40,796 nucleotides of DNA, taken from the NCBI GenBank assembly GCA_903939515.1, contig CAJAHH010000073.1, positions 1-40,796 of the forward strand, written 5' to 3'. Each line of letters starts with the position of its first letter. Position 1 is the stretch's first letter. The position numbers and the translations under genes are program-made. This stretch comes from an uncultured Verrucomicrobiota bacterium (GTDB lineage: Bacteria; Verrucomicrobiota; Verrucomicrobiia; Limisphaerales; UBA9464). The notes beneath the pieces are model-generated. The model had not been told where the DNA came from. It searched no databases and saw only the letters and a list, made by a program, of their open reading frames with translations. This document shows, piece by piece, positions 3,225 to 17,905 of this stretch.

Positions 3225-3238
3225 TAAGGGACAGGCTC
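3225..3238 (+). repeat. Dispersed repeat copy TAAGGGACAGGCTC
   Basis: Fourteen-base match to the dispersed repeat, same orientation as the next copy 128 bases downstream. It lies in the sufT upstream spacer. Confidence 0.75.
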
Positions 3239-3510: not shown

Positions 3511-3539
3511 TTGACAGATTGGGTCCCGCCGCGGATTAA
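3511..3539 (+). promoter_or_regulatory. Probable sigma-70-type promoter for the S-box operon
   Basis: TTGACA (3511-3516) is a perfect -35 box, with GATTAA (3534-3539) after a 17-base spacer as a weak -10 box. Transcription would start around 3546, about 20 bases before the riboswitch P1 stem, which is a sensible position. Confidence 0.5.
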
Positions 3540-3563
3540 CTAGCCCTGCTGCAGGTAACTGTA

Positions 3564-3690
3564 GCGCTCATCCAGAGTGGCAGAGGGTACGGCCCGATGA
3601 AGCCACGGCAACCGGTGGAGCTGACGTGCTCGACGGCCAGGTGCCAAATCCGGTCGGAACTACAAAGTTCCGGCGAAGATGAGAAGCGTC
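3564..3690 (+). promoter_or_regulatory. SAM-I (S-box) riboswitch
   Basis: The leader contains the S-box core in order. The P1 5' arm CTCATC (3567-3572) is followed by AGAGTGGCAGAGGG and then GGCCCGATGAAGCC with CGGCAACC (3591-3613). Next come GGTGCCAAATCC (3640-3651), a GGAACTACAAAGTTCC hairpin (3656-3671) and the P1 3' arm GATGAG (3678-3683). The kink-turn/J-region bases and the pseudoknot-forming loop are recognisable, so this is a SAM-I aptamer rather than SAM-II, III or IV. It is followed by an intrinsic terminator, the usual off-switch layout in which S-adenosylmethionine stops transcription. The regulated genes would be the threonine-synthase-like enzyme at 3800 and the sulfur carrier at 5104. 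Confidence 0.95.
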
Positions 3691-3704
3691 GGCTCCCTAG
3701 GAGA

Positions 3705-3733
3705 CCCCTTCTCGCTTTGCGGAAGGGGTTTTT
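3705..3733 (+). terminator. Riboswitch-controlled intrinsic terminator
   Basis: CCCCTTC (3705-3711) pairs with GAAGGGG (3722-3728), followed by five T (3729-3733). It sits just after the S-box aptamer and 67 bases before the first gene, as expected for the expression platform. Confidence 0.9.
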
Positions 3734-3799
3734 ATATGCCCCCACCGCGTCGGTTTCTTGGATGTGCGCTGATCGGTTGCCGCGGCGGTTATTTTTCTT

Positions 3800-5059
3800 A
3801 TGAGCCAGAGCAACGGATTCATGAAGGCACTGAAGTGCCGGGAGTGCGGACGAGAATACCCCCTGGGGGCCACACATGTTTGCGAGTTCGATTTTGGACC
3901 GCTGGAAGTGGCTTATGACTACGAGCGCATCCGCCAGAGTCTCACCAGGGAAACGATTTGCTCGCGTCCCCAGAACATGTGGCGCTATCGGGAACTCCTC
4001 CCGATTGCCGGCGAACCGACGGTCGGAGCCAAGGTAGGCTACACCCCATTAATTAAGGCAGATCGTCTAGCAGCTCGGCTGGGGATCCGCGAATTGTGGA
4101 TTAAGAATGATGCGGTCAACTATCCGACGCTGTCCTTCAAGGACCGCGTGGTGAGCGTTGCTCTGAGTCGTTCCGTGGAACTTGGATTCAAGACCGTCGC
4201 CTGCGCGTCCACGGGCAATCTGGCTAATTCGGTGGCGGCCAATGCCGCGGCCGCGGGGCTCCAGTGCTACGTTTTCATTCCCTCGGACCTAGAGCAGGGC
4301 AAGGTTGTCAACTCTCTGGTCTACGGGGCGAATGTCGTCGCGATCCGGGGACATTATGACGAGGTGAACCGGTTGTGTGCGGAGATCGCCGGCAAGTATG
4401 GATGGGCGTTTGTGAACGTTAATATGAGGCCCTATTACGCGGAGGGATCCAAGAGCATGGGCTTCGAGATCCAAGAGCAGTTAGGGTGGCAGATTCCGGA
4501 ACACACGGTGGTCTGCATGGCTTCCGGTTCCTTGCTGACTAAAATCCATAAGAGCTATCAGGAGTTTTCCAAGCTGGGATTGGTCCAGAGTCATGGGTGG
4601 AAAATCCACGGAGCCCAAGCCACGGGTTGCTCTCCGATCACAACTGCACAGAAAGCTGGGTTGGATTTCTTCAAGCCGGTGAAGCCCAATACCATTGCCA
4701 AGTCGTTGGCGATTGGGACTCCCGCCGACGGCTTCTATGCACTGAAGGTTATGAAAGAGACTGGCGGCCACAGTGACGATGTCTCGGATGACGAAATTCG
4801 TGAGGGCATTCGGATGCTCGCAGAAACAGAGGGAATCTTCGCAGAGACTGCCGGCGGTGTTACCGTGGGTGTGGCCAAGAAGCTCATCGCCCAAGGCAAG
4901 ATCCCGGCCGATTCCAGCGCAGTGTTGTGCATTACTGGCAACGGCCTCAAGACGTTGGAAGCCATGCTTGGGCATTGCGGTGAGTCCCGGGTTATCAAGC
5001 CGAGCCTCCGGGAATTTGAGGCGCTGTTGGCCTCAGATCAGGCTGAGGTGGCGGGTTAA
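3800..5059 (+). CDS. thrC: Threonine-synthase-like PLP enzyme under SAM riboswitch control
   Basis: This 419-residue fold-type II PLP enzyme has the PLP lysine at K114 in PTLSFKDRVV and the phosphate-binding loop ASTGNLANSV near 136-145. An N-terminal zinc-ribbon-like segment has C13, C16 and C28, but the expected fourth cysteine is replaced (HVCEFDFGP). It belongs to the long threonine-synthase branch starting 'CRECGREYPLG', annotated as converting O-phosphohomoserine to threonine. Two context facts argue for a different or extra role: a SAM-I riboswitch and terminator sit upstream, and a ThiS/MoaD-type carrier ending in Gly-Gly follows 44 bases later. I infer that it may use O-phosphohomoserine with a carrier thiocarboxylate to make homocysteine. 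Plain threonine synthase remains the conservative call. An alternative start is the ATG at 3821. Confidence 0.88.
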   Translation: MSQSNGFMKALKCRECGREYPLGATHVCEFDFGPLEVAYDYERIRQSLTRETICSRPQNMWRYRELLPIAGEPTVGAKVGYTPLIKADRLAARLGIRELWIKNDAVNYPTLSFKDRVVSVALSRSVELGFKTVACASTGNLANSVAANAAAAGLQCYVFIPSDLEQGKVVNSLVYGANVVAIRGHYDEVNRLCAEIAGKYGWAFVNVNMRPYYAEGSKSMGFEIQEQLGWQIPEHTVVCMASGSLLTKIHKSYQEFSKLGLVQSHGWKIHGAQATGCSPITTAQKAGLDFFKPVKPNTIAKSLAIGTPADGFYALKVMKETGGHSDDVSDDEIREGIRMLAETEGIFAETAGGVTVGVAKKLIAQGKIPADSSAVLCITGNGLKTLEAMLGHCGESRVIKPSLREFEALLASDQAEVAG

Positions 5060-5103
5060 CGCTAATCGGGCTTCAATTGAGTTTTTTTTGATGATCCAAG
5101 GCC

Positions 5104-5376
5104 ATGGTTGAAGTTTTGATCCCGCCTCAACTCCGTCGACTGTGTGATGGTGAAGAGGCGGTCGAAGTCGGGCCCGGAACCCTTGGGGAGGTGCTCCTGC
5201 AATTGCAGCAGCGCTTCAATGGGATTTATGACCGACTGTGCCAGCCCGACGGTAGGGTCCGTGGTTCCGTTCTGGTTCTCGTTAATGACGAGGATGTCCG
5301 GTTTCTTCGGGAGCTTCAGACGCCCGTGTGCTCCGGAGATTCGGTGCGTCTGATACCCGCCTTTGCAGGCGGTTAA
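5104..5376 (+). CDS. ThiS/MoaD-family sulfur carrier protein
   Basis: This 90-residue beta-grasp protein ends in RLIPAFAGG. The exposed C-terminal Gly-Gly is the site that E1-like enzymes (MoeB/ThiF type) adenylate and convert to a thiocarboxylate. The hydrophobic pattern, with VEVGPGTLGEVLLQL, LVLVNDEDV and SGDSVRLIP, matches MoaD/ThiS/CysO. It follows the threonine-synthase-like gene by 44 bases with no terminator between, so it should share the S-box leader. Known relatives feed molybdopterin (MoaD), thiamine (ThiS), cysteine (CysO) or homocysteine (HcyS) synthesis. The partner here favours an amino-acid role, but no activating enzyme or Mec-type peptidase is in the window. The ATG at 5104 has AAGG a few bases upstream. 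Confidence 0.85.
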   Translation: MVEVLIPPQLRRLCDGEEAVEVGPGTLGEVLLQLQQRFNGIYDRLCQPDGRVRGSVLVLVNDEDVRFLRELQTPVCSGDSVRLIPAFAGG

Positions 5377-13273: not shown

Positions 13274-16200
13274 TTACGGGCTGATCAGGCGGAAGAAACG
13301 ACTCTCTTCCGGCACCTCTAATGTGAGGGTGCTGAAGCCGTTGACATTGCGAATTGGGTCGCGGATGTCGGACCACGTGGAGAGGTTGGTCGAGCTTTGC
13401 AGCCGGTAGGTTTGTGTTCCCAAGGTGAAGCGCACGATGCGCAGGGCGGGTGCCAGGATCACTGCGCCATCCACTGCCTCGGTGGGACGAAGCGGATTAT
13501 AACCGAATTGGAGTTCCTGGCCATCGGGCAATCCGTCGCCATCGGTGTCGGCAGTTTCGGGTGAAGTGCCGATGAGCAATTCGTAGCGGTCGTCCAGGCC
13601 GTCGCCGTCGGTGTCGCGGGGTTGAAGGGCGGCCACGGTGTGGAATCCGCCGGCCGAGAACAGCAGGGCGCCATTGGCTGAATCGGGAATGAGCAGGGAT
13701 CCGGCAGAATCTCCACCCCACGAAACAAGTTCACCTGAGTCGCGGAGGGCCACCGTATGATTGTAGCCGGCCTGGATGGCGACCACCCGCTCGAGGCCTG
13801 CGGGAATTCGCAACTGACCGTCTCCGTTGCCGCCCCAGGCGACGACCGAGCCGTCGGCGCACAGGACCACCGTGTGGGAATCGCCAGCAGTGACCGCGAC
13901 GACGTTTTTCAAACCCGCCGGAACCACGCATTGACCGGCCCGGTTGTTGCCCCAGCAGACGACCGTGCCGCCATCGAGGAGGGCGATGGCATGACTCCAA
14001 CCAGCGGCGATGGCGCGCACGTTTTGAAGTCCGGACGGGATATTGAGCTGCCCGTTGTAGTTGGTGCCCCAGGCGGTGACCGTGCCGTCGGCCAGCAAGG
14101 CAAGGCTGTAGTCGCCGCCGGCCGCGATGGCTGTGACCGGGGCACTGAATACCGGTGCGGTGGCTTGCCCAGACGTATTGCGTCCCCACCCGGTGACATG
14201 TCCGTCGGCGTCGAGGGCCAGCGAATGGTTGCCGCCGGCCGCGACGGCGACGACGGATTGCAAGGTGTTGGGAACGGACAACTTGCCGTCGGTCGAATCA
14301 CCCCAGGCCACCACGGTGCCGTTGGTTTGCAAGGCCAGCGTGTGCCAGGTTCCGGCGCTGATTTGGCGGAGTGTGCCCAATGATTTCGGCACGGAAGTCT
14401 GCCCGAGACTAGAGTCGCCCCAGGCCAGGACGCTGCCCTTGATGAGGCCCTGGTCGGCATTGCTGCGGTCAGGCCCCTGGAGACGGTAGAAGGCCTGAGC
14501 AGGAAGGGTATTGGTGAAGCGGCGGGACCATCCATTGGTCTCGCGATGGAGTTCCTCTAAATCTCCCCAGACCACGCCGTCTTGGGATCCCTGAAGACGG
14601 TAGCCCTCTCCGCCAAGTGCGAAGCTCCTCAGGGCGATCGACGGTTCGAGGCCCAACCATCCATCGGGTCGCTCTGTGGCGATGGCCGGATCAAAACCGT
14701 TTTGCAGTTCAGTTCGGTCGCCCAGTCCGTCGCCATCGGTGTCTGCGAGGCTCGGGCTAGAGCCGAGTCGATTTTCGATACCATCCTCCAGACCGTCGTT
14801 GTCCGAGTCCGGGTCGGCAGGGTCGGATCCATTGGCCCGCTCCACCGAATCGGCCAACCCGTCGGTGTCTGCGTCAGGCAACCGTTGAAGGGCCACCAAG
14901 TGATGGGCTCCGCCGGCCAGTTGCTCGATGCGTTTCAACCCGGTGGGCACTCGCCAGGCGAGGGCATTGGTGTCACCCCAGACCGTCACCGATCCATCGG
15001 GTGTCACAGCCGCTCCGATGGAGGCTGTGGTGGCAATGTTCAGCGCCGGCGTGGCCTCGCGTGAGGGGTTTCCGGCTGAGCCTGGGGTGGCTGTTACCGC
15101 GCCGTTGCGGTGGAGCAGGAGGCCTTGGTCTTCTCGTGAGGCAAATCCGACGATGCCCGTGAGGTTGGTGAGTCCGGGGCGACCTACCGTACGGAATTGG
15201 CCGGAGGTACTCGTCCAGCCTGAGGCGGTGGCACCGGCTAGGATGCGCGTGCCCGTGCGTCCATTTAAATTGGTTTGACCTGCTGTGGCGTCACCCCAGG
15301 CCCAGATCTTGCCATTTCGGTCGAGAGCCAGGGTGTGCAGGTCGCCGGCGGCAATGGCCATGGCGTTGGTAAGCCCGGCTGGAACGGTAGCCTGTCCCCA
15401 AGTGTTATCGCCCCAGCAAATCACCTGACCCGCGGCGGTCAGGGCCACCGAATGAGCCGCCCCGGCGGCGATGGCCACCACGGAGCTCAGGTCGGTGGGA
15501 ATACGAGCCTGTCCCTGAGAATCTTGTCCCCAGGCGACCACGGTGCCGTTGGTGCGGAGCGCCAGGGAATGACCGAAACCCGCAGCCACCGCGGTGACGA
15601 GGCCGATGTTACCGGGCAGCGTCGTTTGGCCAAAGGTGTCGTCGCCCCAGGCTACTACGGTGCCCACGATGCGCTCGGGCGAGGGTGATCGCGGGAATCG
15701 CAGGACTTCGACCCGCAAATTTCGGCTGGTTTGGATCCGGGTGGTTGCATCGAGAGAGGCTTCCAGACGGTAGATTCCGCCTTCTTCAGGAAGGATGTCG
15801 TGCAGGACCAGGTTGGCGTTGGTCTGGCCTGCCAGGGCCTTGCCGTCGCGGAACCACTGGAATGAGGGAGCCTTAGCGGCTACGACGGGGGGTGTGGGAG
15901 GAGAATTTGTGATGCTACCGCCCGTACCCGTTCCCGGATCTGTGCCGGGGTCTGTGCCGGGGTCTGCATTCGGATCCACCGGCGGAGTCGGCGGTAGGAC
16001 GACGGGTGGTGGCACCACGGCGGCGGTTGCAGTGGCTGGTTTCAGGGCGACTGCGCGCAGGACTAGCCTGTCCCCGGCAAGGACTTGGCGATCGCGCTCG
16101 AGCAACGCAAAGACCGGATAACTTTCGTCCGAAGACGGATTGGTGCCCGCAGCCAGTTCCGCTCCGTCTGGGGAACCATCGGAGTCGCTGTCCGGGTCCA

Positions 16201-17905
16201 ACGGGTTGAGGCCAAGGCGCAGTTCTTCGGTGTCCGGAATGCCATCGCCATCGGAATCGCTGCTCTGAGTCAGTTCAGCCAAATCGGAGACGCCATCACC
16301 GTCGGAATCGGGAGAGAGCGGATTGAGGAACATGCGGAGTTCGATACCGTCCTCCAATCCGTCTTGGTCGGTGTCCGGGACGACGGAATTCAGGCCCAAC
16401 GCAACCTCGGTGGAATCGTCGACGCCATCTTGGTCGCCATCGATCCGTGCCCGGATTCCGGCCGCGGCCTGGAAGCCGGCGCTCAGGGTGAAGAGATTGG
16501 TCTGGGGAGTGGATTGGGCCGCCACGGCCGGGGTACCCCAGCCGACTGCATTGTCAGCGGCCGTCAGTGCCAACGAATAGCCCGCACCGGCGCTGATTGC
16601 CACGGCTGGCGGCATCCGGGGCGGCGCCGGGACTTGCTTCAAGGCCGTGTCACCCCAGGCCATAATGAATCCCTCCCGGGATAGGGCGAGGGTATGGTAG
16701 TCGCCGGCGGCAATCCGGGCGATGCGAGGAAGGTTGGCGGGAATTGCAGCCTGTCCTCGGTCGTTGGATCCCCAGCAGACCACGGTTCCATCGAATTTCA
16801 GGGCCACGGTATGGGCGGCGCCAGCGGCGATGGCCACCACTCCGGAAAGTCCGGCCGGCACTGCCGATTGCAGGCTGCTGTTGTCGCCCCAACAGACGAC
16901 AGTGCCGTCGGGGCGCAGGGCCACCGAGTGGAAATGTCCCGCGGCCACGGCGATGGCTTCCGTCAATTCTGGCGGAACGGCCGTTTGTCCGTAACGCGTG
17001 TCGCCCCAGGCTCGGACCATTCCATTGGTTAAAATAGCCAGGGTGTGGAAGGCCCCTGCGGAGACAGTCTGAACTGGAGGCAGGCTATTGGGGGTACTGA
17101 GCTGGCCGAGGGTGTTGGTTCCCCATCCCCAAAGTTTTCCATTAGAATCGAGGGCATAGCCGTGGACGAAGCCCCGGGCGACGGCGACGGCGGTGGTCAA
17201 TTTCGGGGGAGTGGAGCCGACTTCGCGTCCCCAAACCACGAGTTCACCGGACGGTCTCGGAAACTCCCTCAAAGGACGGACTCCCAAGACATCAATGCGG
17301 GTCCCTTTGGGTTCGCGCTGAAGGGTGCTCTCCAATTGAGCCTCCAGCGTGTAACGACCGGATTCTGGGCGTTCGACGCCGAAAAAAACCAGGTTCACAT
17401 TGGTTTGGCCGGTCAGGGACTTGCCGTCCCGGTACCACTGGTAGGTGGTGTAATTGGTGAGGATGGTGATGTTGGTGGTGTAGGTCGGGGCGCTTCCGTC
17501 CGGCGGGGGATCGTTGGTGACGATCGTGATGTTGGTCTTGAGCGAGAGGGGTTTGAGTGAAAGCGGGCGCAGTCGCAACAAATCGCCGCTGAGCAACTGT
17601 CGATCCCGGTCGACGGTCTGAAACAGGGGGATGCTGGTCTTGTCGCGGGGCAGCGTGTTGGCTGTGAATTCCGCGAGGTCGTTGGCTCCATCGCCATCGG
17701 TGTCGGCCACGAAGGGATCGCTGCCGAAGCGCAGTTCGAGGACATCGCTCAGCCCGTCCCCGTCAGAATCCGGTTCGGGGAATGCTTTGGCTCGGAACGA
17801 GTGCGTGGGGTTCGCACCTAAAAGTGCGAGGCTCACGCAGAATCCCCCAATGAGCGCCGGAAGCATTCTTATCGAAAGGTAAGGAAATAGTGGTAGCAAG
17901 CGCAT
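13274..17905 (-). CDS. Large exported RCC1 / type-3 calcium-repeat / Ig-like protein
   Basis: This 1543-residue modular protein has an N-terminal signal peptide (hydrophobic stretch ending near residue 32, before THSFRAKA). It alternates Asp-rich calcium-binding repeats of the DSDGDGLSD type with RCC1 beta-propeller blocks built from the motif V-x-A-W-G-D-x-x-x-G-Q-x-x-x-P. Each RCC1 block has six or seven blades. Roughly: Ca repeats 44-85, Ig-like segment 95-205, RCC1 215-480, Ca repeats 490-600, a Pro/Gly/Thr linker and second Ig-like segment 620-710, RCC1 720-970, Ca repeats, RCC1 and Ca repeats. A C-terminal beta domain ends TLEVPEESRFFRLISP, common in verrucomicrobial surface proteins. 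Probably an extracellular or surface protein stabilised by Ca2+. Its partner is unknown. The alternative start is M14 (17866). Confidence 0.88.
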   Translation of the reverse strand: MRLLPLFPYLSIRMLPALIGGFCVSLALLGANPTHSFRAKAFPEPDSDGDGLSDVLELRFGSDPFVADTDGDGANDLAEFTANTLPRDKTSIPLFQTVDRDRQLLSGDLLRLRPLSLKPLSLKTNITIVTNDPPPDGSAPTYTTNITILTNYTTYQWYRDGKSLTGQTNVNLVFFGVERPESGRYTLEAQLESTLQREPKGTRIDVLGVRPLREFPRPSGELVVWGREVGSTPPKLTTAVAVARGFVHGYALDSNGKLWGWGTNTLGQLSTPNSLPPVQTVSAGAFHTLAILTNGMVRAWGDTRYGQTAVPPELTEAIAVAAGHFHSVALRPDGTVVCWGDNSSLQSAVPAGLSGVVAIAAGAAHTVALKFDGTVVCWGSNDRGQAAIPANLPRIARIAAGDYHTLALSREGFIMAWGDTALKQVPAPPRMPPAVAISAGAGYSLALTAADNAVGWGTPAVAAQSTPQTNLFTLSAGFQAAAGIRARIDGDQDGVDDSTEVALGLNSVVPDTDQDGLEDGIELRMFLNPLSPDSDGDGVSDLAELTQSSDSDGDGIPDTEELRLGLNPLDPDSDSDGSPDGAELAAGTNPSSDESYPVFALLERDRQVLAGDRLVLRAVALKPATATAAVVPPPVVLPPTPPVDPNADPGTDPGTDPGTGTGGSITNSPPTPPVVAAKAPSFQWFRDGKALAGQTNANLVLHDILPEEGGIYRLEASLDATTRIQTSRNLRVEVLRFPRSPSPERIVGTVVAWGDDTFGQTTLPGNIGLVTAVAAGFGHSLALRTNGTVVAWGQDSQGQARIPTDLSSVVAIAAGAAHSVALTAAGQVICWGDNTWGQATVPAGLTNAMAIAAGDLHTLALDRNGKIWAWGDATAGQTNLNGRTGTRILAGATASGWTSTSGQFRTVGRPGLTNLTGIVGFASREDQGLLLHRNGAVTATPGSAGNPSREATPALNIATTASIGAAVTPDGSVTVWGDTNALAWRVPTGLKRIEQLAGGAHHLVALQRLPDADTDGLADSVERANGSDPADPDSDNDGLEDGIENRLGSSPSLADTDGDGLGDRTELQNGFDPAIATERPDGWLGLEPSIALRSFALGGEGYRLQGSQDGVVWGDLEELHRETNGWSRRFTNTLPAQAFYRLQGPDRSNADQGLIKGSVLAWGDSSLGQTSVPKSLGTLRQISAGTWHTLALQTNGTVVAWGDSTDGKLSVPNTLQSVVAVAAGGNHSLALDADGHVTGWGRNTSGQATAPVFSAPVTAIAAGGDYSLALLADGTVTAWGTNYNGQLNIPSGLQNVRAIAAGWSHAIALLDGGTVVCWGNNRAGQCVVPAGLKNVVAVTAGDSHTVVLCADGSVVAWGGNGDGQLRIPAGLERVVAIQAGYNHTVALRDSGELVSWGGDSAGSLLIPDSANGALLFSAGGFHTVAALQPRDTDGDGLDDRYELLIGTSPETADTDGDGLPDGQELQFGYNPLRPTEAVDGAVILAPALRIVRFTLGTQTYRLQSSTNLSTWSDIRDPIRNVNGFSTLTLEVPEESRFFRLISP

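Follow-up and report, generated by a model that had tools for sequence, protein, structure and literature searches.

The DNA considered here (the window, 40,796 nucleotides in full) is contig CAJAHH010000073.1 (C73) of GenBank assembly GCA_903939515.1, a genome of 4.71 Mb in 160 contigs (95.9% complete) from an uncultured Verrucomicrobiota bacterium (GTDB lineage Bacteria; Verrucomicrobiota; Verrucomicrobiia; Limisphaerales; UBA9464). Four features follow one another on its forward strand: the aptamer of an S-adenosyl-L-methionine (SAM)-I riboswitch or S-box (positions 3565 to 3685), an intrinsic terminator hairpin with U-run serving as its expression platform (3700 to 3733), the gene of a 419-amino-acid threonine-synthase homologue of the PALP/thrC family (3800 to 5059), and the gene of a 90-amino-acid ThiS/MoaD-type sulfur carrier (5104 to 5376, PF02597), hereafter carrier A, a lineage-specific paralogue with a C-terminal Gly-Gly whose role as sulfur donor is uncertain. 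MetM of Streptomyces albulus, reported by Hasebe et al. (2024, Appl Environ Microbiol 90:e01247-24) and summarized in PMC12172450, is a threonine-synthase homologue that makes homocysteine from O-phosphohomoserine, is preceded by a SAM riboswitch and has cyanobacterial homologues. We propose that the window locus is very probably a SAM-I-riboswitch-controlled operon of the metM type, with a predicted O-phosphohomoserine-dependent homocysteine synthase; by its likeness to the Streptomyces system it would probably join the pathway published in 2024 as a further member in Verrucomicrobiota.

The aptamer matches RF00162 with 73 bits (E = 2.2e-15; the gathering score, 44.4, is the threshold for all S-box counts in this work), and together with the terminator this identifies the element as a SAM-I riboswitch. 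The folding energy of the terminator (-21.3 kcal/mol, z = -4.84) was reached by none of 200 shuffled sequences. The 3' strand of P1, GAGAAGCG (about 3681 to 3688), can pair with the 5' arm of the terminator (about 3708 to 3715), and the competing antiterminator duplex has a computed energy of -20.7 kcal/mol, a value obtained without a shuffle control; this pairing is consistent with the layout of an S-box switch. In a whole-genome search limited to RF00162 among the SAM riboswitch classes, the window's element was the single match. The initial annotation, which had described a complete S-box with terminator, a threonine-synthase-like pyridoxal 5'-phosphate (PLP) enzyme and a Gly-Gly carrier, thus holds for all three features, with the amendment that the aptamer proper begins at 3565 and not at 3511; the carrier open reading frame (ORF) belongs to the ThiS family and does end in GG.

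The enzyme reaches 275 bits with the TIGR00260 model (thrC, cut-off 167), and its N-terminal ribbon consists of C13, C16, C28 and D31, so that the fourth cysteine is indeed missing, as had been noticed earlier, and is replaced by Asp; among 92 relatives with that column, Asp is found in 47 and Cys in 45. In a tree of 52 sequences, the 28 rows of the MetM group (window, cyanobacteria and Nonomuraea included) form one side of a branch with 97/100 support, the other ThrC of the source genome (L001) joins ThrC1 (88/93), ThrC1 and the Zn-type ThrC stay outside the MetM clade, and the CysK-type rows fall outside the threonine-synthase branch that holds the window enzyme, the tree program having warned of long branches between the ThrC1 and CysK rows. 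Four residues, K114 (at the position of the PLP lysine according to the motif), R210, Y213 and T385, do not vary across the 93 aligned sequences. The MetM type is recognized by the signature NxNxRP[YF]YAEGSK plus GLKT, whereas four solved threonine synthases carry NSVNPxRxEGQK plus GLKD, a canonical motif that the window enzyme lacks; the substrate loop is rebuilt in the MetM type, with its Arg three positions earlier than in solved ThrC. In Thermus ThrC this loop is presumably the binder of the substrate phosphate. An AlphaFold model of the enzyme (mean predicted local distance difference test score 80) has its best fold match in Arabidopsis threonine synthase (Z = 38.0), followed by cysteate synthase (Z = 35.2); no CysK/CysM or CBS row was present among the 50 fold matches listed, which is not evidence against those families.

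The remainder of the source genome was searched for methionine, threonine and carrier genes. Five PF00291 matches were found, i.e. a second ThrC (L001), CysK (L002), the window enzyme, TrpB (L004) and one below cut-off; the names were assigned from sequence, and L001 and L002 were placed by the tree as well. The window enzyme is therefore not the sole threonine synthase. No member of the MetB/MetC/MetY/MetZ family (PF01053) was detected above cut-off in the source genome, and the family was found in 14 of 14 control genomes; the six sub-threshold matches, all partial, resemble other aminotransferase-fold enzymes. MetX (TIGR01392) gave no match either, MetA (PF04204) being outside the search, and the HcyS/MetY route was set aside since neither PF01053 above cut-off nor MetX was found. 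HcyBio/DUF39 (PF01837) gave no match in any of the 12 Verrucomicrobiota genomes that carry the enzyme subtype (see below), the source genome among them, and the DUF39/NIL-ferredoxin route was rejected. ThrB (E = 2e-66) and MetH (E = 7e-123) are both encoded. The initial annotation had named a complete ordinary met pathway beside a single threonine synthase as grounds for abandoning a homocysteine pathway; a second thrC exists, and within the families searched no such pathway was found. It had also raised a carrier working only in molybdopterin synthesis. The ThiS-family proteins of the source genome number four, namely carrier A, a MoaD adjoining MoaE (L014), a short one (L015) and a 112-amino-acid carrier on contig C123 (L012); with a separate MoaD/MoaE pair, carrier A is not the only candidate for molybdopterin work, and the molybdopterin-only explanation was rejected. 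A ThiF-rhodanese protein encoded elsewhere (L017) could activate the carriers.

The enzyme subtype (at least 63% identity to the window enzyme, every other match reaching 41% or less) is present in 12 of 288 Verrucomicrobiota genomes, the source genome included, and all 12 possess a second ThrC-like match (partial in G121). Full-type PF01053 proteins, defined here by E below 1e-30, occur in one of the 12 positives (G257) versus 39 of 39 subtype-negative genomes, the latter being hand-picked from the 276 listed and not a random sample (Fisher p = 2.5e-10). Eight of the 11 positives without a full-type protein carry partial matches that span about 100 residues and barely exceed the 27-bit cut-off (the exceptions are G121, G265 and the source genome); these were judged by span to be other aminotransferase-fold proteins and were not counted. 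In three negatives (G045, G085, G125), which were entered as PF01053-bearing, the only matches lie in long frames and start at about position 67. MetX-type matches (E up to 3e-30; the TIGR01392 cut-off of 500 bits was reached by none of the 36 genomes and none of the 14 controls) were obtained in one positive (G257, partial) versus 23 of the 24 negatives used for this comparison (p = 2.3e-7). ThrB is above cut-off in 11 of the 12 positives and the MetH activation domain in just four, so that the last step either differs among them or was missed. The carrier gene lies directly downstream in all 12 subtype loci (in L025 with a tail after GG), and an S-box lies upstream in nine of them versus none of five other thrC loci. 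Since the pattern recurs in 12 genomes and in the loci described next, an artefact of a single draft assembly was rejected as an explanation. Two of the positive genomes (L023, L026) are single contigs of 0.9 Mb that keep enzyme and carrier and have no S-box above the gathering score.

Beyond Verrucomicrobiota, a scan of genome contigs returned at least 589 relatives, the best 80 of which, a set biased to close relatives, are treated here as named loci. By record title they stem from Verrucomicrobiota, Mariprofundus, Nitrospirota, deltaproteobacterial groups, Omnitrophota, Nitrospinota, KSB1, Elusimicrobia, Margulisiibacteriota, Cyanobacteria and others; Mariprofundus and Methylacidimicrobium are culturable relatives in the set. 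A check for co-occurrence of enzyme subtype, carrier and S-box, suggested in the initial annotation, gave a same-strand carrier ORF no more than 1.6 kb downstream of the enzyme in 74 of the 80 (the broken one of L051 is counted) and an S-box upstream in 47, within 500 bp in 44. The six loci without a carrier ORF in range comprise L095, whose carrier lies at 1.62 kb; L101 and L111, which end less than 350 bases from the gene; L052 and L126, where the reading frame of the carrier is interrupted; and L105, where none was seen. The initial annotation had also placed the gene pair in actinomycetes, and this is borne out in Nonomuraea gerenzanensis (L132), where S-box, enzyme (52.6% identity) and carrier are arranged as in the window and an ORF identified by eye as GroEL-like lies beyond them. 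Same-strand neighbors in the 80 loci and L132 include ThiF (27 loci), sulfite-reductase-like proteins (18), homoserine dehydrogenase (5), aspartokinase (5) and phosphoglycerate-mutase-like proteins (4), these families being BLAST clusters with one representative each checked against Pfam. In Nitrospirota loci an ordinary ThrC is encoded shortly downstream of the enzyme, and eight such proteins were placed by tree with the ThrC of the source genome. Two fusions were seen in passing in metM loci: a sulfite reductase joined to TusA (782 amino acids, L107, 1629 to 3974) and a ThiS domain joined to a PALP-family enzyme (367 amino acids, L114, 2653 to 3753).

The second ThrC, the lack of PF01053, MetX and DUF39 matches, the position in the MetM clade and the association with carrier and S-box all support the homocysteine pathway proposed in the initial annotation, which on comparative grounds would run as follows. 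At low SAM the riboswitch would permit read-through, as its class and the P1/terminator pairing suggest; the ThiF-rhodanese protein L017 would adenylate the Gly-Gly carrier, whose C-terminus would become a thiocarboxylate; the PLP enzyme would bind O-phosphohomoserine made by ThrB and eliminate phosphate as threonine synthase does; sulfur from the carrier, and not water, would then add to C4 to give homocysteine, by homology to published MetM. MetH would methylate the homocysteine to methionine and the other ThrC (L001) would make threonine, the sulfur donor being either carrier A or the C123 carrier, which is encoded beside a NIL-domain protein.

Several observations weigh against this interpretation. 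No S-box reached the gathering score in 33 of the 80 named loci (three of them cut near the gene), including 13 of the 14 loci titled Nitrospira, Nitrospirota or Thermodesulfovibrionia and both cyanobacteria. For 45 of the 80 named loci the subtype-positive genomes were tested for a full-type PF01053 protein (E below 1e-50), which was present in 17 and absent in 28, so that replacement outside Verrucomicrobiota is common and not strict. The absence of met genes is weakened by the 95.9% completeness, the 160 contigs and the omission of MetA. The tie to the assayed S. albulus protein runs solely through the Microcystis ThrC, which is 51.6% identical to MetM and which, in the assessment given in PMC12172450, falls short of full MetM function in vivo. 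Finally, the adjacent carrier is not of the ordinary MetO type, a carrier of which sits at C123 instead, and carrier A is broken in two close relatives, by a frame change in L051 (5192 to 5484) and by a stop codon plus frame change in L052 (4990 to 5260), where the enzymes are 98% and 97% identical to that of the window, respectively, and the S-box is present.

The last point leads to the alternative that survives best, a refinement to which we give about the same weight as to its opposite: the enzyme would make homocysteine from O-phosphohomoserine with sulfur from the C123 carrier or from free sulfide, and carrier A would serve another thiolation or be on its way to loss. The broken copies beside intact enzymes and S-boxes are evidence against carrier A as an obligatory donor; L051 and L052 are contigs of metagenome-assembled genomes, where the breaks may stem from sequencing error, an explanation that two lesions make less likely. 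Carrier A belongs to a side clade (95/89) with L050, L055, L056 and the first copies of L053 and L054, and has RGSV where RRF[VIL] stands, by position, in 68 of 76 carriers (one of the eight misses, L078, is a counting artefact). The C123 carrier, which retains RRFV, clusters with the carriers of the ordinary metM-linked type (85/86); it is followed by a NIL-domain ORF (L012, 1426 to 2159) with no S-box, and this pair is probably the missing half of the window operon. L053 and L054 have the two carriers in tandem after the enzyme and then NIL. This arrangement makes an ancestral order of S-box, enzyme, carrier A, carrier B and NIL probable, with B and NIL now located elsewhere in the source genome. 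On the other side, carrier A is intact beside the enzyme in the window genome, in L050 and in L053 to L056, and its comparison with L050 gives 20 silent and four replacement codons, a sign of purifying selection by which carrier A is, or recently was, useful. Of the proposal in the initial annotation, the carrier-based route to homocysteine thus stands with comparative support, and the assignment of the local carrier as donor may be wrong.

It is very unlikely that the enzyme is a second ordinary threonine synthase whose control by SAM reflects the sharing of O-phosphohomoserine between threonine and methionine: its TIGR00260 score is well over the cut-off and threonine synthases are the top fold matches of its predicted structure, but a separate ThrC-like match accompanies it in all 12 positives, as does a ThrC encoded a short way downstream in the Nitrospirota loci, its substrate loop differs, and without it no homocysteine route was found among PF01053, MetX and DUF39 (MetA was not searched for), on which grounds an ordinary ThrC duplicate was rejected. 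A threonine deaminase, or a dual synthase/deaminase feeding isoleucine synthesis, is a similarly improbable assignment. It draws on the Microcystis homologue, for which such a role has been proposed and synthase as well as deaminase activity reported in vitro (PMC12172450), and on the source genome, where no IlvA (threonine deaminase) is among the four strong PF00291 matches; isoleucine may be supplied there by another route. An S-box would, however, cut the isoleucine supply at high SAM, the recurrent carrier partner would be left unexplained, and Microcystis possesses its own IlvA according to the same text (PMC12172450). The poorest candidate, with hardly any probability left, is a cysteine synthase that would depend on the carrier and take O-phosphoserine in the manner of CysO/CysM, for which the best solved relative of carrier A speaks (3dwg_C, listed as '9.5 kDa culture filtrate antigen', E = 5.2e-15, which we take to be CysO), but the enzyme sits in the threonine-synthase branch with the CysK-type rows outside and shows no CysM-type placement, CysK is already present (L002), and control is by SAM.

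The metM-type loci also point to further parts of the system. ORFs resembling NIL, called at a phmmer E of up to 1e-3 and in three cases verified by Pfam, are present in 56 of the 80 named loci, in seven of the 12 Verrucomicrobiota loci, where flanks are short, and at C123 of the source genome; none was found at the Nonomuraea locus L132 at the same threshold. NIL is fused behind the Gly-Gly of the carrier in six loci, so that the 76 carrier ORFs comprise 44 ending in GG, 26 with a tail of 1 to 22 residues and the six fusions; L119 and L097 are examples of tailed or fused carriers with a neighboring JAB protein. Among loci whose carrier has a non-terminal GG, 13 of 32 have a JAB-type gene no more than 3.5 kb away, and among those with a terminal GG one of 41 does (p = 4e-5, without correction for phylogeny). 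We tentatively suggest, as one joint proposal that we hold to be possible and a little short of even, that outside actinomycetes the NIL protein is a third part of the MetM route; that the carrier is often a pro-carrier with a Gly-Gly buried by a short tail or NIL fusion and freed by a JAB protease; that phyla such as Nitrospirota and Omnitrophota possess a carrier-based sulfur-to-homocysteine island with ThiF, sulfite-reductase-like and aspartate-branch genes; that NIL is a sulfur-transfer or methionine-sensing module common to the MetM and DUF39 pathways, which are unrelated; and that the two carriers of the source genome share the work or are in the middle of a replacement.

Two features of the window unconnected with the operon were recorded. 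The short motif AGGGACAGGCTC is dispersed over positions 180 to 32034 with 13 matches (at most one mismatch) versus 0.24 expected, e.g. at 3227, 3355, 7275, 7370 and 7472 on the forward strand and 180, 15505 and 32023 on the reverse strand; the surroundings have little in common beyond a preceding A or T, and contig C59 of the source genome (L005) holds 18 exact copies in 3.2 kb. An ORF of 1543 amino acids on the reverse strand (13274 to 17905) contains repeated WG/AAG-type units and DTDGDG stretches and is RCC1-type-like by appearance.

The locus offers a possible answer to how Verrucomicrobiota without PF01053 enzymes synthesize homocysteine, and the comparison suggests that genes annotated as 'threonine synthase' in many phyla encode homocysteine synthases. 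Questions of carrier maturation and usage are raised by the recurrent NIL partner, by the carriers with a buried Gly-Gly and by the decay of the local carrier, and these parts are worth new work. In 2018 at least one homocysteine pathway was considered still undiscovered, with Aquifex, Pyrolobus and Acidimicrobium among the cases named (PMC5764234). Operons of carrier, ThiF, JAB and cysteine synthase, and of sulfite reductase, have been described in a paper whose text contains neither 'threonine synthase' nor 'NIL' (PMC1779556).

Among known systems, the window enzyme shares with ThrC the fold, the PLP lysine motif and the likely substrate, and differs from it in both signature motifs given above. 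Cysteate synthase (9k3c), the second-best fold match, is likewise a threonine-synthase-like enzyme that joins a sulfur nucleophile, but its substrates are other ones and its identity to the window enzyme is 19%. The CysO/CysM/Mec+ system of Mycobacterium resembles the window system in its Gly-Gly carrier, in the ThiF-rhodanese candidate L017 and in the JAB gene of related loci, and is unlike it in using a CysM-family enzyme to convert O-phosphoserine to cysteine. HcyS/MetY of Wolinella, for which PMC5764234 cites Krishnamoorthy and Begley (2011), is said to lead from a carrier thiocarboxylate to homocysteine, as predicted for the window, but with a PF01053 enzyme acting on acetylhomoserine, a family with no member above cut-off in the source genome. 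The closest system is that of MetM, for which the carrier MetO was reportedly named as thiocarboxylate donor by Hasebe and colleagues in 2024. In both, a threonine-synthase homologue with relatives in cyanobacteria stands behind a SAM riboswitch, and homocysteine is formed from O-phosphohomoserine, as published for MetM and predicted for the window enzyme; in the actinomycete locus L132, as in the window, the carrier gene follows directly downstream. The window system is set apart by its Verrucomicrobiota host, by the 52.6% identity to the Nonomuraea homologue, by a carrier that is duplicated and split over two contigs, and by a NIL-domain gene, which was not seen in L132.

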